Positions 46,813 to 63,497 of a stretch of 64,000 nt of DNA are shown piece by piece. The notes below the pieces were generated by a model. That model saw only the letters and a list, made by a program, of their open reading frames with translations, made no database searches and had not been told where the DNA came from. Origin of the DNA: Sphingobium amiense (GTDB lineage: Bacteria > Pseudomonadota > Alphaproteobacteria > Sphingomonadales > Sphingomonadaceae); assembly GCF_003967075.1 (NCBI RefSeq), contig NZ_AP018664.1, positions 310,001 through 374,000 of the forward strand, read 5' to 3'. A program made the position numbers and the translations under genes. The first letter of the stretch is position 1, and every line of letters starts with the position of its first letter.

Positions 46813-47043
46813 GGAACCCCCGCTGGACATCGGGTCGGCATAGCGTGGTGGCCGCCGACACTCTTATGCGTGCCCCCTTTTTCAATTTGATCCGGACCCA
46901 AAGGACAGGGGCATTTCGCGTTCTGGAAAATTTGTTGCAATCAAAAGAAATGCGGTGAGCGTGATAAGCGCCGCCCGACCTCCGCCTGCATTACGTTGAG
47001 CAGACTGGCGCAGCGCCGGACGACCGATTGTGGGGGCATCATC

Positions 47044-49743
47044 ATGAACAGCTTGGTTCGCCGATACGGCACACGACTTCTCTGCGCCGCAGCGCACATC
47101 ACGGTTCTGGCGGCGGCTCCGGCGCTGGCGCAATCCGCCCCGGCAGCGGACAGTGCGCAGGCGGACGCGCCCGGCACGATCGTCGTCACGGCTTCCCGGC
47201 TGGGCCGCCGCGACGTTCCCACGCCGCAACTGGCGCTGGACGCGACAGTGCTCAGTCAGGGCGGACGGCTGAATGCCGTCGCCGCGCTTCAGGACTTCCC
47301 GCAGTTCCGCCCGTCGAGCACGCCAGCCACCAACGGCGGGCAGACCGCAGGCGGCGGCTATGGCATCGACCTGCGCGCTCTGGGCATCCCCCGCACGCTG
47401 TCGCTTCTCAACGGGCACCGCTTCTCGTCGGGAAGCGGCGATCTGCCGATGGGTTATACGGATGTCGGCGTCATCCCTTCGATCCTGATCGAGCGGGTGG
47501 ACATCGTGACCAGCAGCGCCGCTGCGACATGGGGTTCGGGCGCGGTCGCGGGCGTGGTCAATTTCGTGACGACCGACAAGCTGGAAGGTGCGCGCGTCGG
47601 TCTTCAGAGCGGCATTTCCAGCCGGGGTGACGGCTTCGAGGGCAAGGCCGAGGCTGCCTATGGCACGACCTTCGGCGGGGGCCGCGGGCGGATCATCATC
47701 GGCGGCGAATATAGCAAGAGCGAGGGCATCGACGCCCGCAGCGACCGCAAGAATGTCGGCCGCTGGGCGGCGCTCGCCAATGCCGGGCAAACCCCGACGC
47801 TGACGCCGAACGTGGGCCTCAACAACATCAGCCGGGGCGGGTTGATCACCAACGGCTTCTATGCGGGCCAGTCCTTCAACCCCGATCATACGCTCAGCCC
47901 CTATAATGGCGGGACGCTGGTGGGCGTGTCGCGGGTCGGCGGCATCGCGCCGTCATCCGACGATGTGGTCAACCTGATCGCGCCTCTGACGCGGATCGGC
48001 GTGATGGGCCGGTTGTTCTACGATCTGGGAAGCGACGTGCGGCTGACCGCCGACGTGCTCTATTCGCACGCCACGGCCAATTCCTCGATCTTCCCGCAAT
48101 CGACCACCAGCACCATCTCCATCGACAACGCCTTCCTGCCGCAAGCGATCAAGGACGGTATGCTTGCCGCCGGGCAGACCAGCTTCTCGCTCGGGCGCTT
48201 CAACGACGATTACGCGGCGTTGCAGGACAAGGTGCGGCGCGACACTTTCCAGGGCACGGTGTCGCTGGACGGGCGTCTGGGCAGCAAATTGCAGTGGAAT
48301 GCCTATTACACCCATGGCAGCCTCAGCATCAAATCGCACATCAACAACAGCCTGATCGCCAGCAATTTCGCGCAGGCGGTCGACTCGGTGAAGGGTGCGA
48401 ACGGCCAGCCGGTCTGCCGGGTGACGCTGACCACGCCGTCCAGCAACTGCGTCCCCATCAACCTGTTCGGCGAAGGTGCGCCGTCCCAGGCGGCGCGCGA
48501 TTATGTGCTGGGGACCGCCATCGCCAATGCGCGCAACTCGCTCGATGCGGGGGGTGTCTCGCTGCGCGGCGACGTGCTCGATCTGTGGGCGGGGCCGCTG
48601 TCGATCGCGGTGGGCGCCGAAGCGCGGCGCGAAAGCCTGCACCTGACCAACGGGCCGCTGGACCGGGCCAAGGCCTTCGTCCTGGTCAACGCGCCTGCCT
48701 ATGGTGGTGAAATCAAGACCGCCGAGGGCTTTGGCGAGTTCATGCTGCCGATCCTCAAGGACGTTCCCGGCTTCAGCAAGCTCCAGTTGAACGGCGCGGC
48801 GCGCTATTCGAACAATGACCAGTCGAAGGGCGTCTGGTCGTGGAAGATCGGCGTGCTCGACCGCGTGGTCGAAGGCGTCGAAGTCCGCGCCACCCGGTCG
48901 CGCGACATCCGCGCGCCCGGCGTCAACGAACTGTTCGCCACGGTCGTAGGGCCGCAGCGCGGCATCTTCTTCGATCCGCTGAAGAACACCAGCTACCAGA
49001 TGTCGACCTTCACCGGCGGCAACCGGAACCTGAAGGTCGAACTGTCCGACACGACGACCTTCGGCGTCACGCTGACCCCGTCCTTCGCGCCGGGCCTGAC
49101 GATCACGGCCGATTATTACAATATCAACATCAAGAACGCGATCAGCGCGCCTTCGACGCAGACCGTGCTGACCAATTGCGGAAACGGCATCGCGTCGTCC
49201 TGCGCCCTCATCACACGGGCCGATGACGGAACCGCCACGTCCGTCCTCGTCACCAACCAGAACTTCCTCTCGTACAAGGCGAGCGGCGTCGATTTCTCGC
49301 TGCGCTATCCGCTGCCGATCTCGATCCTGTCGGGCGTCACCGCGATCCGTCTGGACGGTAGCTGGCTGCGGAAGCTGGAGACCAATGACGGGAAGTCGGT
49401 GGTCAACCTGATCGGGACGACCGGCGCCGCCGCCGTCAACGGCGCTCCCAAACTGTCGGGCAACGCGGCGCTGACCTACGACAGTTCGACCTTTTCGGCC
49501 TATCTGCGCGTGAAATATGTCTCGCCGTCCTGGTATAACCGCGCGATCACCATCACCAACAACCGTTATGCGGCCTATGCGACGGTGGATCTGGGCCTGA
49601 ACTATCAGGTCACGCCGGGGATGAAGATCTTCGCCAACGTCAACAATCTGTTCGACCGCGATCCCCCGATCGCGTCAGGGCGGTCGGTCTATTACGATTT
49701 CATCGGCCGTTACTACCAGTCGGGCGTCCGGTTGAGCTTCTAA
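47044..49743 (+). CDS. TonB-dependent outer-membrane receptor 3
   Basis: 899 residues from ATG 47044 (GGGGG upstream). Signal peptide ends PALAQ (about 30), then APGTIVVTASRLGRR. Plug: GGGYGIDLRALGIPRTLSLLNG, VDIVTSSAAATWGSGAVAGVVNFVT. This is the larger receptor subtype, different from the other three, which have GPQGTL motifs. The barrel ends with a canonical aromatic, YQSGVRLSF. It diverges from the DUF2817-MFS-dehydrogenase-aldolase operon across 231 bp and probably feeds it. A hairpin follows the stop. Confidence 0.92.
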   Translation: MNSLVRRYGTRLLCAAAHITVLAAAPALAQSAPAADSAQADAPGTIVVTASRLGRRDVPTPQLALDATVLSQGGRLNAVAALQDFPQFRPSSTPATNGGQTAGGGYGIDLRALGIPRTLSLLNGHRFSSGSGDLPMGYTDVGVIPSILIERVDIVTSSAAATWGSGAVAGVVNFVTTDKLEGARVGLQSGISSRGDGFEGKAEAAYGTTFGGGRGRIIIGGEYSKSEGIDARSDRKNVGRWAALANAGQTPTLTPNVGLNNISRGGLITNGFYAGQSFNPDHTLSPYNGGTLVGVSRVGGIAPSSDDVVNLIAPLTRIGVMGRLFYDLGSDVRLTADVLYSHATANSSIFPQSTTSTISIDNAFLPQAIKDGMLAAGQTSFSLGRFNDDYAALQDKVRRDTFQGTVSLDGRLGSKLQWNAYYTHGSLSIKSHINNSLIASNFAQAVDSVKGANGQPVCRVTLTTPSSNCVPINLFGEGAPSQAARDYVLGTAIANARNSLDAGGVSLRGDVLDLWAGPLSIAVGAEARRESLHLTNGPLDRAKAFVLVNAPAYGGEIKTAEGFGEFMLPILKDVPGFSKLQLNGAARYSNNDQSKGVWSWKIGVLDRVVEGVEVRATRSRDIRAPGVNELFATVVGPQRGIFFDPLKNTSYQMSTFTGGNRNLKVELSDTTTFGVTLTPSFAPGLTITADYYNINIKNAISAPSTQTVLTNCGNGIASSCALITRADDGTATSVLVTNQNFLSYKASGVDFSLRYPLPISILSGVTAIRLDGSWLRKLETNDGKSVVNLIGTTGAAAVNGAPKLSGNAALTYDSSTFSAYLRVKYVSPSWYNRAITITNNRYAAYATVDLGLNYQVTPGMKIFANVNNLFDRDPPIASGRSVYYDFIGRYYQSGVRLSF

Positions 49744-49827: not shown

Positions 49828-51327
49828 ATGTCTCTGACGCAGAAGGCCGTCGACTGGGAGGGCATGGCGCAGCGCCTCCAGTGGCCGACGGAGCATTTCA
49901 TCGACGGCGGGTTCGTCCGATCCTCCTCACCGGAACGGTTCGATACGATCAATCCCGCCACCGGTGAGGCGCTCGCCCGGTTGCCGGTGGGCACGGAGGC
50001 GGATGTCGATCTGGCGGTGAAGGCGGCGCGGCGTGCTTTCGAGGATGGACGCTGGCGCAACAGGCCCATCGCCGAGCGCAAGGCGATCCTGCTGCGCGCC
50101 GCCGACCTGATCGAGGCGCGGCGCGAAGAGTTCGCCCTGATCGAAGCGCTGGAAGTCGGCAAGGCCGTCACCAACGCTCACGCCGAAATCGCCATGTCGA
50201 TGGACTGGCTGCGTTATTATGCGGAGGCTATCGACAAGGTGTATGGCGCGGTGGCGCCGTCCGACGGCAGCCTCTTCGCGCTCAACCTGATCGAACCGCG
50301 CGGCGTGTGCGGGGCCATCGTGCCGTGGAATTTCCCGCTGGCCAACGCAGTGATGAAGGCGGCGCCCGCGCTGGCCGCTGGCAACACGATGGTGCTCAAG
50401 CCGTCCGAAGTGGCGAGCCTTTCCGCCCTGCGCCTTGCCGAGCTGCTGATCGAGGCGGGACTGCCCGCAGGCGTCTTGAATGTCGTTACGGGGCTGGGGC
50501 GCAGCGTGGGCAGCGCCATCGCCCGGCACGCCGACATCGACCTTCTGACCTTCACCGGATCGACGGCGACCGGGCGTGCGCTCATGGAATATGCGGGCCA
50601 GTCCAACGGCAAGCCGCTGATGCTGGAATGCGGCGGGAAATCGCCGCAGATCGTCTGCGCCGACATGGCCGACGAACTGGAGCGGCTCGCCGGTCATATC
50701 GTGCACGATGCATTCTGGAATCAGGGACAATGGTGTTCGGCGCGGACGCGCCTCATCGTCGCCAGCGAAATCCATGACGATGTGGTCGAGGCGGTCGCGG
50801 CGGTGGCGAAGACGCTGACGCCGGGCGAGCCGCTCGATCCCGACAGCCGGTTCGGCACCATTTCCACGCAGGCGCAGTTCGACAAGATTCTGGGCTATGT
50901 CGCGACCGGCAAGCGCGAGGGGGCGACCACGGTGCTGGACGGGGCGGCGGGTTCGCCCTGCGCGCTGTCGCTCGCGCCCACGATCTTCTCCGATGTGTCG
51001 CCCGACATGACGATTGCGCGGCAGGAGATATTCGGTCCCGTCCTGTCGGTGATGCGGGCGGACAATCTGGACGACGCCATCGCCAAGGCCAACGATACCG
51101 AATATGGCCTGTCCGCGACGGTGTGGACTCACAATGCGCCGGTCGCCTTCCGCATGGCGCGGTCGCTCCGCGCGGGCCGGGTCGCGGTGCGCACCAGCGT
51201 GGATGCGAAGGGCAGCACCGGGATCGCGCTGGGCGCGGAACCTTGCGGCGCGTCCGGCTTCGGCGTGGAAAAGGGGCTGGACGGGCTGCGCGCCTATTGC
51301 CGGCTGCGCGCGGTGGAACTTTATTGA
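49828..51327 (+). CDS. NAD(P)-dependent aldehyde dehydrogenase (PuuC/BetB-like)
   Basis: 499 residues, the usual family length. IVPWNFPLANAVMKAAPAL, VLKPSE, FTGSTATG, Glu in LECGGKSP (about 266) and Cys in NQGQWCSARTR (about 302). EIFGPVLSV is conserved near the C-terminus. It oxidises an aldehyde to the acid. It lies after TonB receptor 3 and 73 bp before an AraC-type gene, and could belong to either neighbouring module. Confidence 0.9.
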   Translation: MSLTQKAVDWEGMAQRLQWPTEHFIDGGFVRSSSPERFDTINPATGEALARLPVGTEADVDLAVKAARRAFEDGRWRNRPIAERKAILLRAADLIEARREEFALIEALEVGKAVTNAHAEIAMSMDWLRYYAEAIDKVYGAVAPSDGSLFALNLIEPRGVCGAIVPWNFPLANAVMKAAPALAAGNTMVLKPSEVASLSALRLAELLIEAGLPAGVLNVVTGLGRSVGSAIARHADIDLLTFTGSTATGRALMEYAGQSNGKPLMLECGGKSPQIVCADMADELERLAGHIVHDAFWNQGQWCSARTRLIVASEIHDDVVEAVAAVAKTLTPGEPLDPDSRFGTISTQAQFDKILGYVATGKREGATTVLDGAAGSPCALSLAPTIFSDVSPDMTIARQEIFGPVLSVMRADNLDDAIAKANDTEYGLSATVWTHNAPVAFRMARSLRAGRVAVRTSVDAKGSTGIALGAEPCGASGFGVEKGLDGLRAYCRLRAVELY

Positions 51328-51400: not shown

Positions 51401-52321
51401 GTGAGCCTTTCGGCCCTACCCAGTCCAAGACCCGCCGGCCTTCTCAGCCCGGACGGCCGCGGACATGGGCTGCGGCAGGCGGTCGCGCTGCGGCAGGGGC
51501 TGACACTCGCCAGAACCGATGTGACTTTCGACCATGAAACCGATGCAAGGCTGGAATGCCATGGCAGCTTCCTGCGCTTCCACTTCCGTCTGGAGGGTGA
51601 CAGCGTCGTGTCCGACGACCGGGGCGAATCCTCTTCGGTCAGCGCGGGGACGATCCTGCTCGTGGCGCAGCCCGCCGACAGCTACAAGCGCGAGCGGGCG
51701 GGGATCAATACGCACGAACGTTCGGTAACGCTGATCTGCGACCGCGATTATGCCGCCGAACTCATCAGGCAGGCGGACGCGACGCCTTCTTTCCTCGACG
51801 ATTTCCTGCGGAACGACGTGTCCGGTTTCTCCTTCCTCGAACGCACGATGCCGATGAAGATACGCCCCATCGTGGAGGACATTCTCGATCCTCCGCTCAC
51901 CGGACGGCTGAGCGAAGTGCTGATCGAGGCGAAGGCGCTGGAACTGCTCTGCTACACCATTCACCAGATCCTGCGGGTTCCCGAACAGGGCGCGATCATC
52001 CGGGAGAAGGACAGGAAGCGCGTCAGAGACCTGTGCTTCATCCTGGAGCAAGACCCGGCGGCGCCGATCTCCATCGACCTGCTGTGCCGGGAACTGGCGT
52101 GGAACGACACGCAGATGACGGAATGTTTCAAGGCCGTCACCGGAATCACCATCTCCAACTACCGGCAGCAGGTGCGGATGCGCTATGCCCGCAGGCAGCT
52201 TGAGGAAACGGACCTGCCGATCACCCAGATCGCGTTCGATTCCGGTTATGAATATCCCAGCAATTTCACCACGGCGTTCAAGCGGACGTTCGGTGTGTCG
52301 CCCCGCGACGTGCGGAGATAG
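51401..52321 (+). CDS. AraC-family regulator A
   Basis: 306 residues; GTG start with GAGGAG upstream. The C-terminal AraC HTH pair (about 205-305) contains ISIDLLCRELAWNDTQMTECFKAVTG and TDLPITQIAFDSGYEYPSNFTTAFKRTFG. The N-terminal ligand domain has LRFHFRLEGDSVVS and SVTLICDRDYAAELI. It is strongly similar along its full length to regulator B at 59787-60755 (for example LCRELAWNDTQMTECFKAVTG shared). The two bracket the CoA-transferase/thiol-dioxygenase module. Confidence 0.9.
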   Translation: MSLSALPSPRPAGLLSPDGRGHGLRQAVALRQGLTLARTDVTFDHETDARLECHGSFLRFHFRLEGDSVVSDDRGESSSVSAGTILLVAQPADSYKRERAGINTHERSVTLICDRDYAAELIRQADATPSFLDDFLRNDVSGFSFLERTMPMKIRPIVEDILDPPLTGRLSEVLIEAKALELLCYTIHQILRVPEQGAIIREKDRKRVRDLCFILEQDPAAPISIDLLCRELAWNDTQMTECFKAVTGITISNYRQQVRMRYARRQLEETDLPITQIAFDSGYEYPSNFTTAFKRTFGVSPRDVRR

Positions 52322-52379
52322 CGACCGGACAATCCGTGTCCCGGCCGGGGATGCATTTTTTCTTCCGATGAAGGACGCA

Positions 52380-53561
52380 ATGAACAACGACGATCTGAAC
52401 GACGCGCCCCTTGCGGGAACGAGAGTGGTGGAATTCTGCACGGTGGCGGCCGGTCCCTATTGCGGGATGCTGCTGGCGGATATGGGCGCGGAGGTCATCA
52501 AGGTGGAGTCGCGCGACGGCGACACGCTGCGGCAATGGCCGCCCTTCTGCGAGGGCTTCAGCGAGAATTTCGCGTCGCTGAACCGCAACAAGCGCTCCAT
52601 CGCGCTCGATCTCAAGGATGAGGAGGACAACCGCATCGCGCGCAGGCTGATCGCGTCGGCCGATGTGGTCATCGAAAATAACCGCCCCGGCGCGATGGCG
52701 CGGCTCGGGCTGGGATATGAGCGGTTCGCAAGCGACAATCCGCGCCTCATCTATTGTTCGCTTTCCGCCTACGGCCAGTCGGGACCGCGTGCCAACGAAG
52801 GCGGTTTCGATCTGACGATACAGGCCCGTTCGGGCATCATGAGCGTGACCGGCGAGGAGCAGGGCGGTCCGGTGAAGGCGGGGGTGCCGATTTCGGATTT
52901 CGCGACGGGGCTTTACGGCGCCTTTTCGGTCGCGTCGCTGCTGGTGCGGCGCATCAGGGACGGACGGGGCGGCCATGTCGATGTCTCGATGCTCGGCTCC
53001 AGCCTCGCCATCGCGGCGCTTCAAGTGAGCGAATATTTCGGCAGCGGCCGCAATCCGCGCAAGCTGGGCGCGGCCCATCCCCGCAACGCGCCTTATCAGG
53101 CGTTTCGCGCGCGGGACGGGAGCTTCGTCATGGCGGCGGGCAACAACAAGCTGTGGCGCGGGGTCTGCGAAGTGGTCGGCAATCCCGATCTGGCGAGCGA
53201 CCCGCGGTTCCTGACGCCTTCGGACCGGGCGGCGAGCCAGCAGGCGCTGGCCGACATACTGGAAGCGGCGTTCGCGGACCGGGACGTCGCCGAACTGGTC
53301 GCCAGTTTCGCGGCGGCGGGCATCCCCTGTAGCCCGATCAACAGCTATTCCGACGCCCTGTCCGATCCGCATGTCGAGGCGATGGGATGGGTTCAGGACA
53401 TCGCATCGCCCGCCGGTCACGGCATCCGCACGCTGGGGCCGGTGGTGCGGCTGGATGGCGCCCTGTCCCCCATCACCCGGTCCCCGCCCGCTCTGGATGG
53501 AGATCGGGAAGACATTCTTGCCGAGCTTGCCGTGCTGGAAAATGCCGGGCGCGTCCTGTGA
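52380..53561 (+). CDS. Family III CoA transferase (CaiB/BaiF)
   Basis: 393 residues from ATG 52380, AGGA just upstream; ATG 52368 is four codons earlier. Motifs: AGPYCGMLLADMGAEVIKVE, NRNKRSIALDLK, VVIENNRPGAMARLGLGYE and the catalytic Asp (about 144) in GGFDLTIQARSG. It moves CoA between carboxylic acids. Its GTGA overlap with the thiol dioxygenase gene and position ahead of a crotonase suggest CoA activation of a sulfinic acid, analogous to the succinyl-CoA:3-sulfinopropionate transferase of Advenella. Other acids are possible. Confidence 0.88.
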   Translation: MNNDDLNDAPLAGTRVVEFCTVAAGPYCGMLLADMGAEVIKVESRDGDTLRQWPPFCEGFSENFASLNRNKRSIALDLKDEEDNRIARRLIASADVVIENNRPGAMARLGLGYERFASDNPRLIYCSLSAYGQSGPRANEGGFDLTIQARSGIMSVTGEEQGGPVKAGVPISDFATGLYGAFSVASLLVRRIRDGRGGHVDVSMLGSSLAIAALQVSEYFGSGRNPRKLGAAHPRNAPYQAFRARDGSFVMAAGNNKLWRGVCEVVGNPDLASDPRFLTPSDRAASQQALADILEAAFADRDVAELVASFAAAGIPCSPINSYSDALSDPHVEAMGWVQDIASPAGHGIRTLGPVVRLDGALSPITRSPPALDGDREDILAELAVLENAGRVL

Positions 53562-54148
53562 GCGGGGCGGTGGAGCAGGTGGCCGGGGGCGGGCGGCTGG
53601 ACAGGTTCGTAGAATCGGTGCGGCGCATCGTCGACGGCGGAGAGACGGAAGGCGCGGCGGTGCTCGCGGCCGTCGCGGCGGAACTTCGCGTGCTGGTGGC
53701 GGTGGATGACTGGCTGCCGGAGGATGCCGCGCGCAGCGATCCGGAATATTACCGGCAGTATCTCCTCCATGGCGATCCGGACGGGCGCTTTTCCGTCGTC
53801 AGCTTCGTGTGGGGACCGGGGCAGGAAACGCCGATCCACGATCACACGGTCTGGGGCGCAATCGGCATGCTGCGCGGCGCCGAAGTCTCCGAGAGCTTCG
53901 AGCGAAGCGGTGACGCGTTCGTCAGCGCGGGCGAAGAGCGGCTCGATCCGGGCGATGTCGCGAAGGTATCGCCATGGCACGGGGACATTCACAAGGTGCG
54001 CAATGCGTTCGACGACCGCGTGTCGATCAGCATCCATGTCTATGGCGGCGACATCGGGTCGATCCGGCGGTCCGCCTATGCGCGCGACGGTTCGGCCAAG
54101 AGCTTCATATCGGGATATTCGCCGCGTGACGAAGGCGGGGCGCGATGA
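53558..54148 (+). CDS. Gln-type thiol dioxygenase (cysteine/3-mercaptopropionate dioxygenase family)
   Basis: 196 residues, GTG start overlapping the previous stop (GTGA). Cupin iron site: HDH at 94 and 96 (TPIHDHTVWG) and His145 (GDIHKV). The Ser-His-Tyr triad of thiol dioxygenases is S158-x-H160-x-Y162 (SIHVYGG). At the place of cysteine dioxygenase Arg60 stands Gln67 (RQYLLHGD). Such Gln-type proteins include the 3-mercaptopropionate dioxygenases. It would oxidise a thiol acid to the sulfinic acid with O2 and Fe(II). The stop overlaps the crotonase start (ATGA). Cytoplasmic. Confidence 0.85.
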   Translation: MSGAVEQVAGGGRLDRFVESVRRIVDGGETEGAAVLAAVAAELRVLVAVDDWLPEDAARSDPEYYRQYLLHGDPDGRFSVVSFVWGPGQETPIHDHTVWGAIGMLRGAEVSESFERSGDAFVSAGEERLDPGDVAKVSPWHGDIHKVRNAFDDRVSISIHVYGGDIGSIRRSAYARDGSAKSFISGYSPRDEGGAR

Positions 54149-54873
54149 TCGCGGTCCGGCAGGAAAATGGCGTCCACAGCATCACGCTCAACCAGCCGCT
54201 GATCGGCAACAGCCTTTCGGACGGGATGGTCGCGGCCCTGCATGACGCGCTGGACCAGATGGCGCGGCAGGACGGGCGGCTTCTGGTCCTGCGCGGCGAG
54301 GGGCGGCATTTCTGCACCGGCTTTCATCTGGGCGATCTGGAATCGGAAAGCGACGGATCGCTGCTGCTGCGGTTCGTGCGGATCGAACAACTGCTCGCGA
54401 GAATATGGACCGCGCCCTTTCCCACGCTCGCCATCGCGCAGGGGTGTGCGTTCGGCGCGGGCGCGGATCTGTTCGTGGCGTGCCGCCGCAGGGTCGCGAT
54501 CGAGGGGGCGCGCTTCCGCTTTCCCGGCGCAGGGTTCGGGCTGGTGCTGGGCACGCGCAGGCTGGCGGAGCGTGTGGGGGGAGACACAGCCTGCGGCTGG
54601 ATCGCGGGCGGCGTCACCGTCGATGCGCCGACGGCGGTGTCGCGGGGACTGGCGACCGACTTGGCGAGCGCGGACATGATCGACGCGATCATGGCGCAGG
54701 AAGTCGCGGCGGCCAGCCGGCTGCATCCCGCGACGATGGCGGCGATCTGCGCCGCGTCGCGGAACGAGACCGTTCATGCCGATCAGGATCTGGCCGCGCT
54801 GGTGCGGTCTGCCGCCTGTCCGGGGCTGAAAGACAGGATCGCGGCCTATCTTGCAGAGCTGTCAAAGGGATGA
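54145..54873 (+). CDS. Crotonase-fold protein lacking hydratase glutamates
   Basis: 242 residues, enoyl-CoA hydratase/isomerase superfamily: oxyanion-hole segments GRHFCTGFHLGDL and AQGCAFGAGADLFVAC are intact, so acyl-CoA thioester binding is expected. The two glutamates of true hydratases are missing: the PE of the first region is FPGAGFGLVLGTRRL (Gly), and the second position reads ACGWIAGG (Gly). Hydration of enoyl-CoA is therefore unlikely. With the coupled CoA transferase and thiol dioxygenase it could act on a sulfinyl-acyl-CoA. An inactive or repurposed protein is the alternative. Confidence 0.83.
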   Translation: MIAVRQENGVHSITLNQPLIGNSLSDGMVAALHDALDQMARQDGRLLVLRGEGRHFCTGFHLGDLESESDGSLLLRFVRIEQLLARIWTAPFPTLAIAQGCAFGAGADLFVACRRRVAIEGARFRFPGAGFGLVLGTRRLAERVGGDTACGWIAGGVTVDAPTAVSRGLATDLASADMIDAIMAQEVAAASRLHPATMAAICAASRNETVHADQDLAALVRSAACPGLKDRIAAYLAELSKG

Positions 54874-54886
54874 GGCCTTGCGCGCA

Positions 54887-56176
54887 ATGAACGAAGGGCA
54901 TGATCCCGATCATTCGGCGGCGGTCGACGCCCTGTATCGGCGCATCGACTGGCGGTTGCTGCCGATTTTGATGCTGTCCTACATGCTGGCCTATATCGAC
55001 CGCATCAACATCAGCTTCGCCAAGATCCAGATGCAGCAGGATCTGGGGCTGTCGGAAGCGGTCTACGGGCTTGCCGCGGGCATGTTCTTCATCGGTTATG
55101 TCCTGTTCGAGGTTCCGAGCAACCTGCTGCTCGCGCGGATCGGCGCGCGCCGGACGCTGAGCCGGATCATGGTGCTGTGGGGCGTGACATCGACCGCGAT
55201 GCTGTTCGTGGATTCAGCGTCATGGTTCTATGTCCTGCGCTTTCTGCTGGGGGTGTTCGAGGCGGGATTCGGCCCCGGCATGCTGTTTTACCTGACGCTC
55301 TGGTATGGGCCGCAACGGCGGGCGCGGGTCATATCCCATGTGCTGCTCGCAGCGCCGGTGGCGGGGATCATCGGCGGGCCGGTTTCGGCCTGGATCATGT
55401 CGGAAATGGCGGGGATCGGCGGCCTTGCCGGATGGCAGTGGCTGTTCCTGATCGAAGGCGCGCCGTGCATCGCGATGGGCGCGCTGCTGTTCCTGTGGCT
55501 CGACGATGCTCCGGCGCAGGCCAAATGGCTGAGCGAGCCTGAGCGGGCGACGATCGCGGCGCAGGTGCAGGGGACGCCATCGCGGCATTCCCATTCCTTC
55601 CGGCTGGTGGTGCGCGACCCGCGCGTCTACTGGCTGGCGCTGAGCTATTTCGGGATGGTGACGGGGCTGACGGCGATGAGCTTCTGGCTGCCGACGCTGC
55701 TGCGCACGGCGGGGGTGAAGGTCGGTCTGGCGCTCGGCCTCTATTCCGCCGCGCCCTACGCCGCCGCTGTCGTGACGATGGTTCTCTTTGCACGCCATTC
55801 GGACCGGACGGGGGAGCGGCGTTGGCATACGGTGGTCGCCTGCCTTGTCGCCGGGGCGATGCTGGGGCTGGCGGGCCTGACGCTCGACCGTCTGGCGATC
55901 TGCTTCGCGGCGCTCGTCGTGGCGGCGAGCGCGACCTATGCTGCCTATACGGTGTTCTGGGCCATCGCCAGCGACTATCTAAAAGGTCCGGCGGCGGCGG
56001 GAGGGATCGCGCTCATCAACAGCATCGGCCTGACCGGCGGCTTCGTCAGCCCGACCGTCATCGGCGGCCTCAGGACACTGACGGGCAGCTATACCGCCGG
56101 CCTTGGAGCCATATCCATGCTGCTGGTGCTGGGGGCGCTCATCCTCGCCCTCATACGTTTCCCGGCCCGAGACTGA
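54887..56176 (+). CDS. MFS transporter, anion:cation symporter (ACS) type
   Basis: 429 residues from ATG 54887, 12 helices. YMLAYIDRINISFAKIQMQQDLGLSEAVYGL and FFIGYVLFEVPSNLLLARIGAR are the N-terminal hallmark of the ACS family (phthalate/tartrate/glucarate permeases). FEAGFGPGMLFYLTLWYG is the helix-4 signature. It likely imports an organic acid for the coupled upstream enzymes; it starts 13 bp after the crotonase. Confidence 0.9.
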   Translation: MNEGHDPDHSAAVDALYRRIDWRLLPILMLSYMLAYIDRINISFAKIQMQQDLGLSEAVYGLAAGMFFIGYVLFEVPSNLLLARIGARRTLSRIMVLWGVTSTAMLFVDSASWFYVLRFLLGVFEAGFGPGMLFYLTLWYGPQRRARVISHVLLAAPVAGIIGGPVSAWIMSEMAGIGGLAGWQWLFLIEGAPCIAMGALLFLWLDDAPAQAKWLSEPERATIAAQVQGTPSRHSHSFRLVVRDPRVYWLALSYFGMVTGLTAMSFWLPTLLRTAGVKVGLALGLYSAAPYAAAVVTMVLFARHSDRTGERRWHTVVACLVAGAMLGLAGLTLDRLAICFAALVVAASATYAAYTVFWAIASDYLKGPAAAGGIALINSIGLTGGFVSPTVIGGLRTLTGSYTAGLGAISMLLVLGALILALIRFPARD

Positions 56177-56191
56177 GGGATCAAAGCCGAC

Positions 56192-57640
56192 ATGCGTGTT
56201 TTCTCCGCTACGCTTGCGACCGAAACCAACACGTTCGGGCCGATGCCCACGGGCATTTCGGCCTTTCGCGAGCGCGCCTACTTCCATGCGGGCGAGCATC
56301 CAGACCAGATGCAGATGCATAGCGGGCCGCTATGGGCCGCGCGCGAGGCGGGGGCCGTGCATGGCTGGACGCTGATCGAGGGCATGGTCGCCGCGGCGGT
56401 GCCGAGCGGGATCGTCACGCGCAGCGCTTACGAGAGCCTGCGCGACGAACTGCTGGACGACCTGCGGGGCGCGCTGCCGGTCGATATGGTGCTGATCGGC
56501 CTGCACGGCGCGATGGTCGCTGACGGCCATGACGATTGCGAGGGCGATCTGCTTTCGCGCATCCGCGAGATCGCGCCCGACGCCGTGATCGGCGCGACGC
56601 TCGATCCGCACGCGCATCTGAGCGAGCGGATGGTGCGCAGCGCCGACCTGCTGATCTGCTGGAAGGAATATCCCCATACCGACATACTCGACCGTGCGCG
56701 CGAGCTGGTGACGCTGTGCGCCGCGACGGTCGAGGGGCGGATCACGCCGCGCCCCGCTGTCGTCGACACCGGCATGATCGCGCTGATCCACACCAACAGG
56801 GAGCCGGGCCGCAGCCTTGTCCGGCGGGCCAAGGAAATCGAGGGCATCGACGGCATCCTGTCCGCTTCCATCGTCCACGGCTTTCCCTGGGGCGATGTGG
56901 CGGACATGGGGATGAAGATCCTGATCTACAGCGACGCGCAGAAGGGTGCGGGCGGCGAGGGGGAACGCCTGGCGCAGGACTTCGCCGCCGATCTGGTCGC
57001 GGTGCGCGGGCAGCTTTCCGCGCAGGCGCTCGGCATCGACGACGCGATCGACCGGGCGCTGGCCGGGCCGGGCACGGCGGTGCTGAGCGATGGCGCGGAC
57101 AATGCCGGGGGCGGCGCGCCCAGCGATTCCACCTATATCCTCCGGCGGCTGATCGAGCGGGACATAAAGGACGCCTGTATCGGGCCGCTGTGGGATGCGG
57201 GAGCGGTCGCGATAGCCTTCGACGCGGGGGAGGGCGCGGTGCTGCCGCTGCGGGTCGGCGGCAAGATCGCGCCGCTTTCGGGCATGCCGGTCGATGCGGT
57301 CTGGACCGTGGTGGCGCTGCGCCGTGACATGGTGGTGCAGGGGCTGGTCGGAACGCCCGCCAGGCTCGGCGACTGCGCGCTGATACGGACGGGCGGCGTC
57401 GAGGTGGTGCTGAGTTCCATCCGGTGTCAGGCGTTCGGTCCGGATCTGTTCACCGAACTGGGCTGCGATCCTGCGGCGCGCCGGATCGTGGTCGTCAAAT
57501 CGTCGCAGCATTTCCGCGACGCATACGCGCCCATCGCCCGCGAGATCATCGACGTCGATGCGCCCGGCGTGCTGGCGCGCGACATCACCACGCTGCCGTT
57601 CAGGAAGATCGTCCGGCCGAAATGGCCGTTCGACCGGTAG
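56192..57640 (+). CDS. M81-family metallopeptidase (MlrC-like)
   Basis: 482 residues, 15 bp after the MFS gene. M81 family: N-terminal ATETNTFGPMPTG, LIGLHGAMVADGHDDCEGDLL, ATLDPHAHLSERM (zinc ligands), CWKEYPHTDILDRA, and C-terminal MlrC_C domain with SDGADNAGGGAPSDSTYIL. The name-giver MlrC opens linearised microcystin, but most members act on unknown small amides. No mlrA or mlrB homologue is nearby, so microcystin is not implied. It may cleave an amide-linked thiol or organic acid. Confidence 0.87.
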   Translation: MRVFSATLATETNTFGPMPTGISAFRERAYFHAGEHPDQMQMHSGPLWAAREAGAVHGWTLIEGMVAAAVPSGIVTRSAYESLRDELLDDLRGALPVDMVLIGLHGAMVADGHDDCEGDLLSRIREIAPDAVIGATLDPHAHLSERMVRSADLLICWKEYPHTDILDRARELVTLCAATVEGRITPRPAVVDTGMIALIHTNREPGRSLVRRAKEIEGIDGILSASIVHGFPWGDVADMGMKILIYSDAQKGAGGEGERLAQDFAADLVAVRGQLSAQALGIDDAIDRALAGPGTAVLSDGADNAGGGAPSDSTYILRRLIERDIKDACIGPLWDAGAVAIAFDAGEGAVLPLRVGGKIAPLSGMPVDAVWTVVALRRDMVVQGLVGTPARLGDCALIRTGGVEVVLSSIRCQAFGPDLFTELGCDPAARRIVVVKSSQHFRDAYAPIAREIIDVDAPGVLARDITTLPFRKIVRPKWPFDR

Positions 57641-57649
57641 CGCCCCGCT

Positions 57650-58738
57650 TCACACCGACGCCGGCAGGATATGGATTAACGCCAGAGCGAGCGCGCAGAG
57701 CAGGAGAAAGGACAGGCAGACCGCGACGATGGTGCGGCCGCCTGCGCCGGTGACGGCGCGCAGGTCGGTCCTGAGGCCGAGCGCCGCCATCGAAGCCGCC
57801 GCCAGCATGGTCGAGGCATCGCCGATGGGGCGCAGAAGGAACAGCGGGACGAGACCGCAGGAGCGGACGCCCAGCATGGCGAGGAAGCCCAGAATGAACC
57901 ATGGCACGAGGCCCGCGACATCGCTGTGCCGCCAGCGGACCGGCCGCTCCCTCCGGTTCAGGGCCATCATGGCGAGGGACAGGATCAGACAGACCGGACC
58001 CAGCATCAGGACGCGCACCAGCTTCACCAGCGTGCCGCTCTGAACCGCGATCTGCCCCATGGGCGCGGCCGCCGCCAGCACCTGCGGCACGGCATAGACG
58101 GTGAGGCCCGCAAGGATGCCGAAGTCGATGGGAGCCAGATGCAAGGCTGCGCCCAGCAGGGGCAGGCCCATGACGGTCGCGATGCCGAACACCGCCGTGA
58201 AGGCGACCGCCGCGCTGATTTCGGCTCCGCGCGCCCCGACGACCGGGGCGACCGACATGATCGCGGAATTGCCGCAGATCGCGTTGCCGCAGGCGATCAG
58301 GATCGCCAGCCGGGGCGGCAATCCCAGCAGCCGCGCCATGCCGAAGCCCAGCAGGATCGACAGGATGACGATGGCGACGATGCCCGCGAGCAGGGCGGGC
58401 CGGATCGCCATCAGCGCCGTCGCGGTAAAGGAACAGCCGAGCAGGACGATGGCCAGTTCCAGCAGATATTTCGCGCTGAAATCTATCCCGGCGGCATATC
58501 GGTCGGACGGGGGGCGGACGCTTGCGATGAGGGCGCCGGCCAATATGGCGACAATCAGGGGTTCGGCATAACCCGTTCCATACACATGCTGTTCCGCTGC
58601 GGAGAAGGACAGGGCGGCGCTGCCGATGGTGACCGACAGCAGGGTTCCGGGCAGCAGGCGGGCGGGGCGGAACCGGCCGGGCGTTGCGGTGCAGGCTGCG
58701 CCCAGCGAAAGTTCAGGCGAAATAACAGGTCGATCCAT
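57650..58738 (-). CDS. YeiH-type putative sulfate/sulfite exporter
   Basis: 362 residues, about 10-11 helices. Family motifs: LLELAIVLLGCSFT, IACGNAICGNSAIMSVAPVVGA, AGLTVYAVPQVLAAAAP and LAAASMAALGLRTDL. YeiH proteins are annotated as putative sulfate exporters. It converges on the M81 gene with 9 bp between stops and diverges from a LysR regulator, the same arrangement as yeiH-yeiE in enterobacteria. Beside a thiol dioxygenase, export of sulfite or sulfate released from an organosulfur compound is a sensible role. Confidence 0.86.
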   Translation of the reverse strand: MDRPVISPELSLGAACTATPGRFRPARLLPGTLLSVTIGSAALSFSAAEQHVYGTGYAEPLIVAILAGALIASVRPPSDRYAAGIDFSAKYLLELAIVLLGCSFTATALMAIRPALLAGIVAIVILSILLGFGMARLLGLPPRLAILIACGNAICGNSAIMSVAPVVGARGAEISAAVAFTAVFGIATVMGLPLLGAALHLAPIDFGILAGLTVYAVPQVLAAAAPMGQIAVQSGTLVKLVRVLMLGPVCLILSLAMMALNRRERPVRWRHSDVAGLVPWFILGFLAMLGVRSCGLVPLFLLRPIGDASTMLAAASMAALGLRTDLRAVTGAGGRTIVAVCLSFLLLCALALALIHILPASV

Positions 58739-58833
58739 GCCGCCGCTCCGGTTGCGGCGGCAGGATTGGGCTTTCAGGTCCGATCTGTATAACGGATAAT
58801 AGTGAATGGAATGATCGCGCGGAAGGATTGGTC

Positions 58834-59733
58834 ATGACGCTCGAACAACTCCGGCTTTTCGTGGAGGTCGCCGAACGCGAGCATGTGACGGCGGCGGCGC
58901 GTGCACTGAACCTGACGCAGTCGGCGGTCAGCAACGCCATTGCCGCGCTGGAGACGCGGCACGGGGTGCAACTGTTCGACCGGGTCGGGCGCGGGATCGT
59001 CGTCAACGAGACCGGCCGCCAATTCCTGATCGAAGCCCGTCAGGTGCTCGCCCGCGCCGGGCAGGCGGAAGCGGCGCTCAACGATCTGGCCGGGCTGCGG
59101 CGCGGCACGCTGACGCTCTTTGCCAGCCAGACGGTCGCGGGATATTGGCTGCCCCGCCGCATGGTGGCGTTCCGGGAGGCCTATCCCGGCATCGACCTGC
59201 ATCTGCGGATCGGCAACAGCGAGCAGGCGGAGCGCGCGATCATCGAGGGCGTCGCTGAACTCGGCTTCATCGAAGGCGAAATCGACGAGCCGCGCCTGCA
59301 CCAGTCGGTCGTGGACGAAGACCGGATGGTGGTGCTGGTGCCGCCCGATCACCCGTGGAACCGCGATACGCCGCTCAGCGCGGCGGAACTGCCGACGCAG
59401 CCATGGGTGCTGCGCGAGAAGGGGTCGGGGACGCGATCGAGTCTGGAGGCGGCGATGACGGCGCAGGGGGTCGATCCCGCCCTGCTGAAACCGGCGATGA
59501 CCCTGCCGTCCAACGAATGCGTGCTGGGCGCGGCCGAAGCGGGGGCGGGGGCGACCGCCCTGTCGGAGAGCGTCGCGCGCGCCGCGCTGGCGACCGGCAC
59601 GCTGGTCACTGCGCCGATCGTGCTGCCGAGCCGCCGCTTTCACATGCTGCGCCACAGGGAAAGGCCGGGAAGCCGCGCGAGCCGGGCGTTCGCCGACCTC
59701 GTCAGGGCAGGGGGCGACGGACCCGCGTCGTGA
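58834..59733 (+). CDS. LysR-family regulator (YeiE/CysB-like position)
   Basis: 299 residues from ATG 58834, AAGGA six bases upstream. N-terminal winged HTH LEQLRLFVEVAEREHVTAAARALNLTQSAVSNAI, then the periplasmic-binding-like effector domain with GTLTLFASQTVAGYWLP. It diverges from the YeiH-type exporter across 95 bp (GTATAACGGATAATAG at about 58788 is the A/T-rich part). YeiE, in the same arrangement, has been linked to sulfite response in enterobacteria; a sulfite or sulfinate effector is inferred here. Confidence 0.88.
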   Translation: MTLEQLRLFVEVAEREHVTAAARALNLTQSAVSNAIAALETRHGVQLFDRVGRGIVVNETGRQFLIEARQVLARAGQAEAALNDLAGLRRGTLTLFASQTVAGYWLPRRMVAFREAYPGIDLHLRIGNSEQAERAIIEGVAELGFIEGEIDEPRLHQSVVDEDRMVVLVPPDHPWNRDTPLSAAELPTQPWVLREKGSGTRSSLEAAMTAQGVDPALLKPAMTLPSNECVLGAAEAGAGATALSESVARAALATGTLVTAPIVLPSRRFHMLRHRERPGSRASRAFADLVRAGGDGPAS

Positions 59734-59786: not shown

Positions 59787-60755
59787 CTATGACCGCAAGG
59801 CCCGCGGCGGAATGCCGAAGGTGCGCCGGAATGCAGTGGTGAAATTGCCGGGATATTCATAGCCTGCCTCATAGGCGATCTGCGTGATCGAGGAGTCGGT
59901 TTCCTCCAGTTGCCTGCGGGCATGGCGCATCCGCACCTGAAGCCGGTAGTTGGAGATGGTCGTTCCGGTGACGGCCTTGAAACATTCGGTCATCTGCGTG
60001 TCGTTCCACGCCAGTTCGCGGCAGAGCATCTCGATGGAAAGCGAGGCGGAAGGATCGCGGTCGAGAATGGCGCACAGATCCCTGACGCGCTTGCGGTCGC
60101 GCTCGCGGACCGTCGGACCGGCATCGGAGACGTGGAGGAGGCGGTGGACGGTATAGCAGAGGAGTTCCAGCGCCTTGGCCTCCACCATCATGTCGCCGAG
60201 CCTGCCCGGCAGTTTGGGCTTGAGAATATCCTCGACGATCGGCTGCACCTTGGGCGGCATGGGGCGCGAAAGAAGGGACAGGCCGGATATTTCGTTGCGC
60301 AGATATTCGCCCACGAACGGCGGCATGCCATCGGTCGGCCCGAGCAGTTCGGTGGCGTAATCCTTGCTGCAGATCAGCGTGACCGAGCGTTCGGTGGTGT
60401 CGATGCCGACCGTTTCGCGCTTGTAGCTGTCGACAGGGTGGGCGACGACGAGGATCGTCCCGGCGCTGACCTGCGATGTTTCGCCGCGCTCCCCGGATAC
60501 GACGCTGTCGCCTTCCAGACGGAAGTGGAAGCGGAGGAATGCGCCGGGGCATTCGATCCGGAGGTCGGTTTCCTGTTCGAACGTGACATCGGCGCTGGCC
60601 ACGGTCAGACCCTGCCGCACGGACACGGCCTGCCGCAGACCGCGGCCCCGGCCCGTGGGAGAGAGGACGCCCGCCGACGCGAAACTGGCCAGCGCCGTCG
60701 CTCCGGATGGAACGCCGCCGATGGCGGACGGATCGAGGCCGGATTGAGCGTTCAC
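59787..60755 (-). CDS. AraC-family regulator B (paralogue of A)
   Basis: 322 residues; GTG start with AGGAG about 8 bases upstream. The C-terminal HTH has SIEMLCRELAWNDTQMTECF and SSITQIAYEAGYEYPGNFTTA. The N-terminal domain, LRFHFRLEGDSVVSGERGE, mirrors regulator A. The pair arose by duplication and now marks both ends of the 51-61 kb module, pointing inward. Its upstream region carries two operator-like dyads. It converges on the LysR gene. Confidence 0.9.
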   Translation of the reverse strand: MNAQSGLDPSAIGGVPSGATALASFASAGVLSPTGRGRGLRQAVSVRQGLTVASADVTFEQETDLRIECPGAFLRFHFRLEGDSVVSGERGETSQVSAGTILVVAHPVDSYKRETVGIDTTERSVTLICSKDYATELLGPTDGMPPFVGEYLRNEISGLSLLSRPMPPKVQPIVEDILKPKLPGRLGDMMVEAKALELLCYTVHRLLHVSDAGPTVRERDRKRVRDLCAILDRDPSASLSIEMLCRELAWNDTQMTECFKAVTGTTISNYRLQVRMRHARRQLEETDSSITQIAYEAGYEYPGNFTTAFRRTFGIPPRALRS

Positions 60756-61295: not shown

Positions 61296-63497
61296 TTAGA
61301 ATTTGGCTTCGAACTGAACGCCGATGGTGCGGGGACGGGGGCGGAAGCTGAGGGATTCCACCGCCGGTGCCGAAGTCAGCCCGTTCCAGTTGGTCAGATT
61401 CTGAACATAGACCGAGAATGTCTTGTTATCGTGCGTCGAAATGTCGAAATTCGCATTCACGATCAGCGGCTTTCCGCTGGAATAGACGGCAGCGGCCACG
61501 CCGTTGTCGTTACTTTGCGAGATCCGCAAATTCACTTCGGAACGATAGGTGGCCGAAATGTTCAGGCGACCGTCCAGACTGTCGCTCAGCGGGGCGGTGT
61601 AGTTGGCGAAAACGCTGCCGGTCCAAGCCGGGGAGTTCGCCGTTCTGTCACCCTTTTTGGCCAGAACCACATAGGGCGTTTCCTGCACAATATCCGCGTC
61701 GAGCTTCAGGCCGCTATAGCCGATGCTGCCGCCGAGCTGAAAACCTGCCGCCGGGTGCAGGGTCAGAGTGAGATCGGTGCCCATGCCGCTGGCGGAAGGA
61801 CCGTTGGCGACGGCCGGCGTGTAGGCGCCATTATACAAGATCTGGCCGAGCTGCTGCACGTCGTTCCATTTGATATAATAGACCGCCGCGTCGAACGACA
61901 GCAGGCCGTCCGCCGTGGTGCCCTTGGCCCCGACTTCATAGTTGTTGAGCGTATCGGCCTTTGCAGGGAGCAGGCCCGGCGACGCCGCGAGCGCAAGCGC
62001 CCCCTGATTGAGGCCGCTGCGGAACCCCTGCGAATAGGAGAGATAGGCAGTGAAGGCGGGACTCGGGAGCCATGTGAGCGTGAGGCGCGGCGTGACCTTG
62101 TTGAATTTGGCGACGGCCTTGTAGGCGGGCAGGAAGCCGCCCGAAAGAACCTCTGTCGTGGAGGTGTCGTGGAAATAGCGCAGGCCGCCGGTCAGTTCGA
62201 ACGTGTCATCGGCAAAGGTGCGGGTGATCTGCCCGAACGCGGCGTATGATTCGGAGGAGTCGCGCGAATAGAGCGGTCCGGGCAGCAGTCCGGGCACCAC
62301 GAAATCGACCCGGCCCCGCGCGTTCCGGTAGAAGGCACCTGCCGACCAGCGCCACGACCCCGAGCCTGCGGAGTTGAACAGCAGTTCTTCGGTAAACACT
62401 TTCGTCGGCGACGAGGCGTTCAACTGAATCGGCGTGGTGTAGCCGGTGACATAGCTGAAATCGCTGGAGAAAGGCTGGTCGAAATCGAGATAGCCCGTCG
62501 AGCTGGAAATCGACATGAAGGGCAGGTTGTAGGTAATCTTGCCGCTATACAGGTTGAACTTCGTCTTGCCCGGCTGAGCGACGGTCGACAACTGATTGCC
62601 GTTCTTGTCGGAATAATCGCCGCTGTCCCACTGGTCCCTTTCGAACCATGCGCCAAGATCAATCCTGAGGTCATCGCTCGGCAGCGCGGCCAGTTTGAAA
62701 CGCAGGCTCCGGTTGAGGGCGCTGTTGGCGTTCTTCTTGTTGCGGGCAGGCTGATTGACCCAGCCGCCGATGCTTTCGAGATCGGCGACGGCGCGCAGCG
62801 CGAGCTTGTCCTCGATCAGGGGAATGTTGATCGCGGTATCCGCGCGGAAGCTGGGGTCGCCGCCTGAGGTGGTCGCGACGCCGCCGCGCGCCTTGAATTC
62901 GAACTTCGACGGATCGGCGTCATTGGTGATGATGCGGATAACGCCGTTGAGCGCGCTCGCGCCGTAAAGCGTGCCCTGCGGGCCGCGCAGCACTTCGATC
63001 CGGGCCATGTCGTAGCTGTTCGTATTGGGCACCGTCGCGGCGCGGATCAGCGCGAAGGGCACCGCGTCGATATAATAGCCCGTGGTGGGGCCGCCAGCGC
63101 CGGACGGCACCCCCGGCGCCACGCCGCGAATGGTGACCTGCGTAAGATTGCCGGCATCGTTGTTGGTCTGCGAAATGGCGGGCACCTGAAGCAGCGCTTC
63201 CAGCGTGCCGCCCGAGGGCTGCTTGTCGAGAGTCTTGCCGCTGAGCACGGCGATGGAGATCGGCACCTTCTGCAGCCGCTCTTCCCGCTTTTGCGCGGTG
63301 ACGAAGATTTCCGGCTCCGCCGCATTGCCGGAGTCGGGTGACGGGCCTGTCTGCGCGAGCGCGCCCGAGGCCAGCATCGCCCCGATTCCGGCGCAGGCCA
63401 GTGCGGCGCGGCGGAAAGCGCGGTTGCCGGTCGACTTATAGTGGGAAAATTCGACGCAGTTCTGCGGAATGTTCACGTCTAAACGTTCATGGATCAT
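61296..63497 (-). CDS. TonB-dependent outer-membrane receptor 4
   Basis: 733 residues; GGGGGGTAG lies about 9 bases before the ATG. A long N-terminus (about 48 residues) ends SGALAQ, followed by EPEIFVTAQKREERLQ. Plug: VTIRGVAPGVPSGAGG, GYYIDAVPFALI, GPQGTLYGASALNGVIRIIT. The barrel ends in a canonical aromatic, VQFEAKF. The ligand is unknown; by position it may serve the AraC-bracketed module upstream. A strong terminator follows. The 145-bp gap 63498-63642 holds its promoter and nothing else recognisable. Confidence 0.92.
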   Translation of the reverse strand: MIHERLDVNIPQNCVEFSHYKSTGNRAFRRAALACAGIGAMLASGALAQTGPSPDSGNAAEPEIFVTAQKREERLQKVPISIAVLSGKTLDKQPSGGTLEALLQVPAISQTNNDAGNLTQVTIRGVAPGVPSGAGGPTTGYYIDAVPFALIRAATVPNTNSYDMARIEVLRGPQGTLYGASALNGVIRIITNDADPSKFEFKARGGVATTSGGDPSFRADTAINIPLIEDKLALRAVADLESIGGWVNQPARNKKNANSALNRSLRFKLAALPSDDLRIDLGAWFERDQWDSGDYSDKNGNQLSTVAQPGKTKFNLYSGKITYNLPFMSISSSTGYLDFDQPFSSDFSYVTGYTTPIQLNASSPTKVFTEELLFNSAGSGSWRWSAGAFYRNARGRVDFVVPGLLPGPLYSRDSSESYAAFGQITRTFADDTFELTGGLRYFHDTSTTEVLSGGFLPAYKAVAKFNKVTPRLTLTWLPSPAFTAYLSYSQGFRSGLNQGALALAASPGLLPAKADTLNNYEVGAKGTTADGLLSFDAAVYYIKWNDVQQLGQILYNGAYTPAVANGPSASGMGTDLTLTLHPAAGFQLGGSIGYSGLKLDADIVQETPYVVLAKKGDRTANSPAWTGSVFANYTAPLSDSLDGRLNISATYRSEVNLRISQSNDNGVAAAVYSSGKPLIVNANFDISTHDNKTFSVYVQNLTNWNGLTSAPAVESLSFRPRPRTIGVQFEAKF

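Follow-up and report, generated by a model that had tools for sequence, protein, structure and literature searches.

A CoA transferase, thiol dioxygenase and crotonase gene set in Sphingobium amiense as a candidate route for organosulfur acids

In a window of 64,000 nucleotides from Sphingobium amiense (G000:C1:310001-374000, one contig of a 4.77 Mb genome), we studied three successive genes at 52368-54873 on the + strand, which encode a family III CoA transferase (CoAT), a Gln-type thiol dioxygenase of the 3-mercaptopropionate dioxygenase type (MDO) and a crotonase-fold protein. Since the same gene pairings recur in distant genomes, the coupling of this set appears from sequence comparison to be beyond chance, and the products of the three genes probably serve a single pathway for an organosulfur acid. 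We tentatively propose, with somewhat less than even confidence, that MDO acts first, CoAT second and the crotonase last, as a desulfinase.

Gene layout and the first two enzymes

The three genes had been given as overlapping by GTGA and ATGA in a preliminary description of this stretch, and both coordinates and overlaps were confirmed from the sequence. CoAT (52368..53561, with an alternative ATG at 52380) shares GTGA (53558..53561) between its stop and the GTG start of MDO (53558..54148; 196 amino acids), and the MDO stop shares ATGA (54145..54148) with the ATG start of the crotonase gene (54145..54873). The description took these three genes as the unit, but the strand run extends further, through two genes that it overlooked: an MFS transporter of organic-anion type (54887..56176, +; PF07690 164.2 bits) 13 bases after the crotonase, and an M81 (MlrC-like) metallo-hydrolase (56192..57640, +; PF07364 and PF07171), apparently accessory, 15 bases after the MFS gene. 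Because of the overlaps and short gaps, the three genes and the rest of the run are predicted to be co-transcribed. The nearest NCBIfam families of the MFS protein, 2A0114 (306.4 bits) and HpaX (296.2 bits), are both under their cut-offs.

The preliminary description also proposed that the first two steps of a known route, a thiol dioxygenase and a family III CoA transferase, are encoded here, which our comparisons bear out. CoAT scores 424 bits to PF02515 (family III); its nearest NCBIfam family is succinate--glutarate CoA-transferase (328.6 bits, cut-off 750) and its nearest Protein Data Bank (PDB) entry 4ed9 (285.7 bits), all three comparisons having been made with a query that began at 52359, three codons before the ATG. 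Asp148 and Asp177 of CoAT are invariant in 38/38 aligned rows, window included.

MDO scores 32.7 bits to PF05995, the cysteine-dioxygenase family. Among PDB entries it matches 3uss/4tlf (199.9 bits), 4qma (199.6), 4wvz (195.9) and 6xb9/7kov (194.4), with a lower tier of mercaptosuccinate dioxygenase (43.4) and the entries titled 'cysteine dioxygenase type 1' (at most 26.6). By their titles, 3uss/4tlf and 4wvz are 3-mercaptopropionate dioxygenases, and 4qma and 6xb9/7kov are cysteine dioxygenases type I, which we take to be of the Gln kind despite those titles. Their sources are presumably Pseudomonas aeruginosa (3uss/4tlf, 4wvz), Azotobacter (6xb9/7kov) and Ralstonia (4qma). Scores of 194-200 bits versus 26.6 or less thus agree with the earlier assignment of the dioxygenase to the Gln (3-mercaptopropionate) kind.

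For the alignment and tree of MDO we used 33 rows (the window, 19 crotonase-adjacent copies, 4 lying further off, 7 of the sulfonate/rhodanese kind and 2 PDB stretches); the tree omits 33 MDO loci in whose stretch there is no crotonase. The iron-binding His94, His96 and His145, the Gln67 that replaces the Arg of cysteine dioxygenases, and Ser158, His160 and Tyr162 of the Ser-His-Tyr motif are present in all 33 rows, so that the triad noted earlier is conserved among relatives. Arg171 and Glu109, which match Arg168 and Glu105 of the Azotobacter enzyme by spacing, are likewise found in 33/33 rows. In the parts of the structural report on that enzyme drawn on here (PMC8050391), Arg168 holds the carboxylate of an analogue, the class-marking Gln makes no significant contact, and Glu105 takes the hydrogen bond that ends the Ser-His-Tyr network. 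Placing Gln67 at the substrate position, as the preliminary description did, was therefore right about the residue but not about its role: it marks the class, and by analogy with those parts of the Azotobacter report the contact would fall to Arg171. On its PDB matches and invariant key residues, we assign the window MDO to the 3-mercaptopropionate type as predicted from its sequence.

The window MDO shares all checked residues with these PDB enzymes and is 59% identical to 4qma over 174 columns, but in the tree it falls in a different clade from 3uss and 4qma. It groups with the copies of L043, L090, L044 and L036 (97/94) on a long branch, so that its exact place is unsure. It also stands apart from a second Gln-type MDO of the same genome (C1:1979809-1980342, in locus L037, G000:C1:1970500-1989500), which adjoins rhodanese and alkanesulfonate-monooxygenase-like genes, as in several congeners, and forms a clade with four congeners and a Sphingobium plasmid (100/99). 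An MDO match was found in 23 of 61 genomes searched, 20 of them strong (E below 1e-49).

Recurrence of the gene set

The crotonase is patchily distributed. It was found in 1 of 61 relatives (the window genome itself; E up to 1e-25), in 1/396 genomes of the host order (again itself), in 4/398 of the phylum (itself and three others), in 36/300 of the order of G315, which we guess to be Burkholderiales, and in 7/297 of the order of G203; the order and phylum searches had an E limit of 1e-30 and scored only the best 7 or 9 candidates of each genome. The gene is thus rarer near home and commoner elsewhere, and this patchy presence suggests gain by transfer.

We assembled 53 crotonase loci: 3 from the phylum search, 8 plasmid loci of 14 matches, 2 of 4 from another search, and 40 from the orders of G315 and G203. 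Two loci (L028, L029) and six near-identical Bradyrhizobium plasmid matches (H42-H47) were left out. CoAT was scored within 1.2 kb upstream and MDO within 0.4 kb of the crotonase, and in places without a fitting gene model the matching segment served as the protein sequence. Several loci are cut by contig ends and several come from one genus, so they do not amount to 53 independent cases. Within this sample, 15 loci carry CoAT-MDO-crotonase, 4 MDO-crotonase, 22 CoAT-crotonase and 12 neither partner. Two of the 15 full sets are on named plasmids (Bradyrhizobium guangxiense and Cupriavidus campinensis); the order is also seen in other proteobacterial genomes. Four of the 22 CoAT-crotonase loci (L036, L094, L099, L101) have an MDO at a greater distance on the same strand, and L046, scored as having neither, has a CoAT 1.9 kb upstream beyond an MFS gene. 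The coupling of the crotonase to dioxygenase and CoA transferase seen in the window therefore recurs in many genomes, and what was earlier suggested as a possible new route is a widespread set, not one peculiar to this strain.

Co-occurrence was estimated in the 300 genomes of the order of G315, of which 53 have MDO (E up to 1e-35), 36 the crotonase (E up to 1e-30) and 32 both. MDO was present in 32 of the 36 crotonase-bearing genomes versus 21 of the 264 without (odds ratio 93, Fisher p 1e-24); counted by genus, it was present in 16/18 with crotonase versus 11/116 without (odds ratio 76, Fisher p 8e-12). These p values overstate the case because the genomes are related and kinship was corrected to genus only. 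In 21 of the 32 genomes with both genes MDO is in the crotonase locus, and in 11 only elsewhere. Among MDO loci whose stretch lacks a crotonase we examined 33, including 12 from genomes that carry a crotonase at another place, and found CoAT in none; in this sample, then, CoAT pairs with MDO only together with the crotonase.

Two further genes were considered as core members and rejected: M81 had no match in the 53 crotonase loci, and an aldehyde dehydrogenase of the same broad family as one upstream in the window occurs in 2/53 only, L036 (33% to the best reference) and L043. M81, an unrelated catabolic gene of patchy occurrence, also served as a control for the co-occurrence: among 80 of the 300 genomes four have it, of which one also has MDO and none has the crotonase, numbers too small for a strong control.

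The crotonase as candidate desulfinase

In the published route, as given in the portions of the reports cited, Mdo oxidises 3-mercaptopropionate, SucCD or the family III transferase Act activates 3-sulfinopropionate, and the acyl-CoA-dehydrogenase-fold Acd yields propionyl-CoA and sulfite (PMC6370202, PMC5373536, PMC8102459). The preliminary description cited this route for Advenella mimigardefordensis; Mdo and the acyl-CoA dehydrogenase-like desulfinase hold for that organism, but in these portions the activator named there is SucCD (PMC5373536), Act being the enzyme of Variovorax (PMC6370202). Compared with Advenella mimigardefordensis DPN7 and Variovorax paradoxus TBEA6, the window set has the Gln-type Mdo and family III CoA transferase in common, along with the same predicted intermediates, but a crotonase-fold protein in place of Acd. 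As in the window, Mdo and CoAT are clustered with a third enzyme in Advenella, where a figure legend gives the cluster as CoAT, Acd, Mdo, AhpD, TctC and TctC and lists no crotonase (PMC5373536). Since the defining Acd is not in the set, we regard it as a variant of the Mdo-Act-Acd route rather than a member. The set was not found as a known pathway in the titles and abstract beginnings of the open papers that our searches matched.

A family scan detected no Acd-type gene in the strand run from CoAT to M81. With the 14 acyl-CoA dehydrogenases of the genome as queries, homologues were found in 0 of 19 MDO-linked crotonase loci and in 3 of the 34 others. This absence, together with the crotonase-free CoAT-Acd-Mdo cluster of Advenella, argues that the crotonase stands where Acd stands. 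For the genome as a whole, five of the 14 acyl-CoA dehydrogenase places were compared with the PDB, and none best matched Acd (5af7); their best matches were isovaleryl-CoA, isobutyryl-type (1rx0), short-chain and two other dehydrogenases. The desulfinase, earlier called absent, is thus missing from the run and the 19 MDO-linked loci, and likely absent from the genome, as judged from those five. We also looked among the MDO loci of the 300 genomes for CoAT-Acd-Mdo loci as a displacement test and found none, and because none of the 33 crotonase-free MDO loci has CoAT, the published Advenella cluster is the sole representative of the other side of the proposed swap. Acyl-CoA dehydrogenases near MDO in L051, L173, L176, L178 and L180 are of one type (57-66% identity to that of L051), and the L051 protein is nearest to 5z8t/5gj7 (181.1 bits; Acd 5af7 52.7 bits). 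That the crotonase replaces Acd, as was first suggested, thus gains comparative support, while desulfination itself is our prediction.

The crotonase fold is clear (PF00378, 74.7 bits), and it does not choose a reaction, since fold searches gave 3isa first and then a broad tie of crotonases. 3isa, a putative enoyl-CoA hydratase/isomerase from Bordetella parapertussis with no function in its title, is 44% identical over 237 aligned residues, carries the subfamily residues of the window protein and falls closest in the tree to L101, a locus whose MDO is nearby without being adjacent. A protein search found closer relatives outside the genome samples described above, with 60-62% identity, and one in Rhizorhabdus wittichii RW1 with about 55%. 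In alignments with the hydratases 4fzw and 2pbp, Asp108 and Gly128 stand against the two catalytic glutamates, so by its residues the protein is not an enoyl-CoA hydratase proper. Asp108, Gly128, Arg76, Glu81 and Arg116 are invariant in 64/64 near relatives (64 of the 120 listed were used). In the tree, from which L026 and L112 were left out, the window protein belongs to a clade of 12 rows (98/93), and 10 of the other 11 members are MDO-linked.

In the mechanism that we propose, whose substrate, step order and crotonase reaction are all predicted, the MFS protein would import the acid, the dioxygenase would convert 3-mercaptopropionate (or a close thiol acid) to 3-sulfinopropionate, and CoAT would form 3-sulfinopropionyl-CoA. 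The crotonase-fold protein, acting as a second kind of desulfinase, would then cleave the C-S bond to give propionyl-CoA and sulfite: the oxyanion hole would hold the thioester, the invariant Arg76 or Arg116 the sulfinate, and Asp108 would give a proton to C-beta as SO2 leaves. A YeiH protein encoded divergently would export the sulfite. A methylmalonyl-CoA mutase match in the genome (784 bits) is suited to propionyl-CoA.

Several points weigh against this mechanism. We know of no crotonase that desulfinates, and expelling SO2 would leave C-beta unstabilised, which is chemically difficult. The key crotonase residues are identical in MDO-linked and other members, so that the pattern is no marker of MDO partnership, and residue 61 of the window protein (54325-54327), two residues past the invariant Gly59, is His where 52/54 rows have Asp. 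The likely absence of Acd draws on 5 of the 14 acyl-CoA dehydrogenases. Four of the 36 crotonase-bearing genomes are without MDO, and the 22 of 53 loci with CoAT and no adjacent MDO and the 12 of 53 with neither suggest that the crotonase may serve a wider chemistry; since three loci (L090, L095, L101) hold a second crotonase, other CoA chemistry may also be needed.

The main rival to desulfination has the crotonase act before the dioxygenase: CoAT would activate a thioether such as 3,3'-thiodipropionate, the crotonase would beta-eliminate it to acryloyl-CoA and 3-mercaptopropionate, and the dioxygenase would then oxidise the thiol. This order suits the presence of CoAT upstream of the crotonase in 37/53 loci, including the 22 where MDO is not adjacent. 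For elimination, however, the C-alpha proton has to be removed, a step in which the second hydratase glutamate has its role, and Gly128 occupies that position here. It would also leave the fate of 3-sulfinopropionate open, with no desulfinase at hand. A search for YhdH-type acryloyl-CoA reductase gave 14 matches in the genome and none reaching the family cut-off, a result that covers this one reductase type. In other loci, the gene following the crotonase (L091, L093, L096, L097, L098, L103) was considered as such a reductase and rejected on the L093 copy, a PIG3-type quinone reductase (TIGR02824 454.7 bits) that is weakly YhdH/AcuI-like (87.3 bits, cut-off 297.25).

The mdo-act-acdA cluster of TBEA6, which resembles the window in gene context through the association of crotonase-type enzymes with mdo and a CoA transferase, speaks for the thioether route. 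In the sections of that study used here (PMC6370202), its two enoyl-CoA hydratases are needed for growth on thiodipropionate and not on 3-sulfinopropionate, and thiodipropionyl-CoA, unlike the free acid, stabilises Ech-20, with beta-elimination proposed as one variant. The same sections list VPARA_05510, a crotonase-family gene of the cluster, as a putative 3-hydroxyisobutyryl-CoA hydrolase, which tells against elimination. The cluster also holds acdA, and growth on 3-sulfinopropionate there is independent of the enoyl-CoA hydratases, unlike what we propose for the window. Overall we consider the thioether order unlikely, though a serious contender.

Slightly less likely again is that the same three steps act on a different thiol acid, either a related or substituted one such as 3-mercapto-2-methylpropionate or one freed by M81 from an amide or by the aldehyde dehydrogenase from an aldehyde. 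The M81 hydrolase in the strand run and the upstream aldehyde dehydrogenase would fit such a supply, as would sulfopyruvate-decarboxylase-like genes in L043 (TIGR03845 101.8 and TIGR03846 117.6 bits, below their cut-offs of 147.95 and 221.5), but neither M81 (0/53 loci) nor aldehyde dehydrogenase (2/53) is conserved with the set, and the checked MDO residues match the 3-mercaptopropionate enzymes.

Thiol detoxification or sulfur scavenging, in which the dioxygenase removes excess thiols and the CoA enzymes of an unrelated acid pathway merely share its transcript, would fit the second MDO of the genome beside rhodanese and alkanesulfonate-monooxygenase-like genes, and the joint fall at 4-8 h of cysteine starvation of the Bordetella pertussis cysteine-dioxygenase-family genes bp3011 and bp2871 (adjusted p 0.079) and the YeiH gene bp2808, as given in part of one report (PMC9976334), but the crotonase-CoAT-MDO coupling across families is too tight for chance sharing and makes it improbable. 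That bp3011 or bp2871 corresponds to the MDO of this gene set could not be shown.

The wider module, sulfite handling and neighbouring genes

The loci with CoAT and no adjacent MDO offer a further view of the desulfination proposal. VanB and Rieske genes lie just upstream of CoAT-crotonase in L045, L047, L048 and L121, and a glutathione-formaldehyde dehydrogenase follows the crotonase in the first three; Rieske genes lie further off in L035 and L049, and Rieske and MFS genes in L046. In L050, L124 and L126, instead of MDO, there is an LLM monooxygenase nearest to the dimethylsulfone monooxygenase SfnG (203.0 and 203.9 bits, well below the cut-off of 383; the L126 copy was not itself scanned) with a flavin reductase family gene. 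SfnG converts a methyl sulfone to a sulfinate and formaldehyde. A shared lower half for sulfinates would be coherent, since demethylation could make a sulfinate or thiol; if the LLM and Rieske versions demethylate methylsulfonyl or methylthio propionate, all would converge on 3-sulfinopropionate. We thus raise a broader view, at present rather doubtful: 3isa-type crotonases may be a structurally unrelated second class of sulfinyl-CoA desulfinases, and CoAT-crotonase a widespread lower module (3-sulfinopropionate to propionyl-CoA and sulfite) that various natural organosulfur acids enter through oxygenases able to stand in for one another (thiol dioxygenase, SfnG-like sulfone monooxygenase, Rieske demethylase). 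Against it, the Rieske proteins align with a sterol monooxygenase family over its first half only (79-107 bits, cut-off 600), which is uninformative for sulfur.

In L043 (1-2884), on the Bradyrhizobium guangxiense plasmid, an aldehyde dehydrogenase gene and the sulfopyruvate-decarboxylase-like subunit genes are divergently arranged, located upstream of an ABC transporter, MmgE/PrpD and the CoAT-MDO-crotonase set.

Beyond the strand run in the window are a YeiH-type membrane protein gene (57650..58738, -; PF03601 196.1 bits), a predicted sulfite exporter, and a divergent YeiE-like LysR regulator gene (58828..59733, +), whose best NCBIfam match is YeiE. In Salmonella, according to the part of the report used here, YeiE is a sulfite-binding regulator of yeiH, the gene chiefly responsible for sulfite resistance (PMC12880088). 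The window has the same pairing, a PF03601 membrane protein gene beside a YeiE-type LysR gene, here adjoining a predicted sulfite-producing operon, but both proteins are under their NCBIfam cut-offs (TIGR00698 129.8 bits, cut-off 232.6; YeiE 211.1 bits, cut-off 480). YeiH falls outside the CoAT-to-M81 run because it is on the opposite strand, divergent from the LysR gene. A YeiH-family gene immediately precedes MDO-crotonase in L088, but at our tblastn threshold no second YeiH turned up in the 53 loci, which makes the link suggestive and not general. The joint fall of bp2808 with bp3011 and bp2871 in cysteine-starved Bordetella pertussis (PMC9976334) also fits a tie between such dioxygenases and YeiH. 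The handling of sulfite or sulfate by this pair, proposed earlier, is therefore backed by the Salmonella precedent in that part of the report (PMC12880088) and weakened by its position and scores.

Upstream of the unit, an AraC-type regulator (51401..52321, +; PF12833 83.4 bits) ends 46 bases before the CoAT ATG at 52368 and likely regulates the unit. Before it lies the aldehyde dehydrogenase (49828..51327, +; PF00171 506 bits), loosely tied to the set and a possible supplier of the acid. A second AraC regulator (59787-60755, -), of one family with the first by clustering, flanks the region on the other side, and beyond each lies a large gene resembling a TonB receptor (46996..49743, +, and 61296-63497, -); these are possibly two flanking modules sharing a regulator type. 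Elsewhere in the window, glutamine-synthetase-like, GMC-type, class-I amidotransferase, aldehyde dehydrogenase, SDR and amino-acid permease genes (18381-26982) look like a gamma-glutamyl amine (Puu-like) pathway, a hydantoinase/oxoprolinase A and B pair (30542-34428) lies behind a TonB receptor (28215-30410), and a DUF2817 protein (45724-46812; PF10994, 364 bits) is encoded beside an MFS transporter, a D-2-hydroxyacid dehydrogenase and a class II aldolase.

In the papers cited here a single desulfinase is described for 3-sulfinopropionyl-CoA, Acd, and the crotonase would add another. If the proposed mechanism holds, the much studied crotonase superfamily would acquire a new reaction in this type of C-S cleavage, and the uncharacterised structure 3isa would gain a function. 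The gene pair, which in the named records comes from soil and root-associated bacteria, would then be a marker for the use of small sulfur acids and the release of sulfite.

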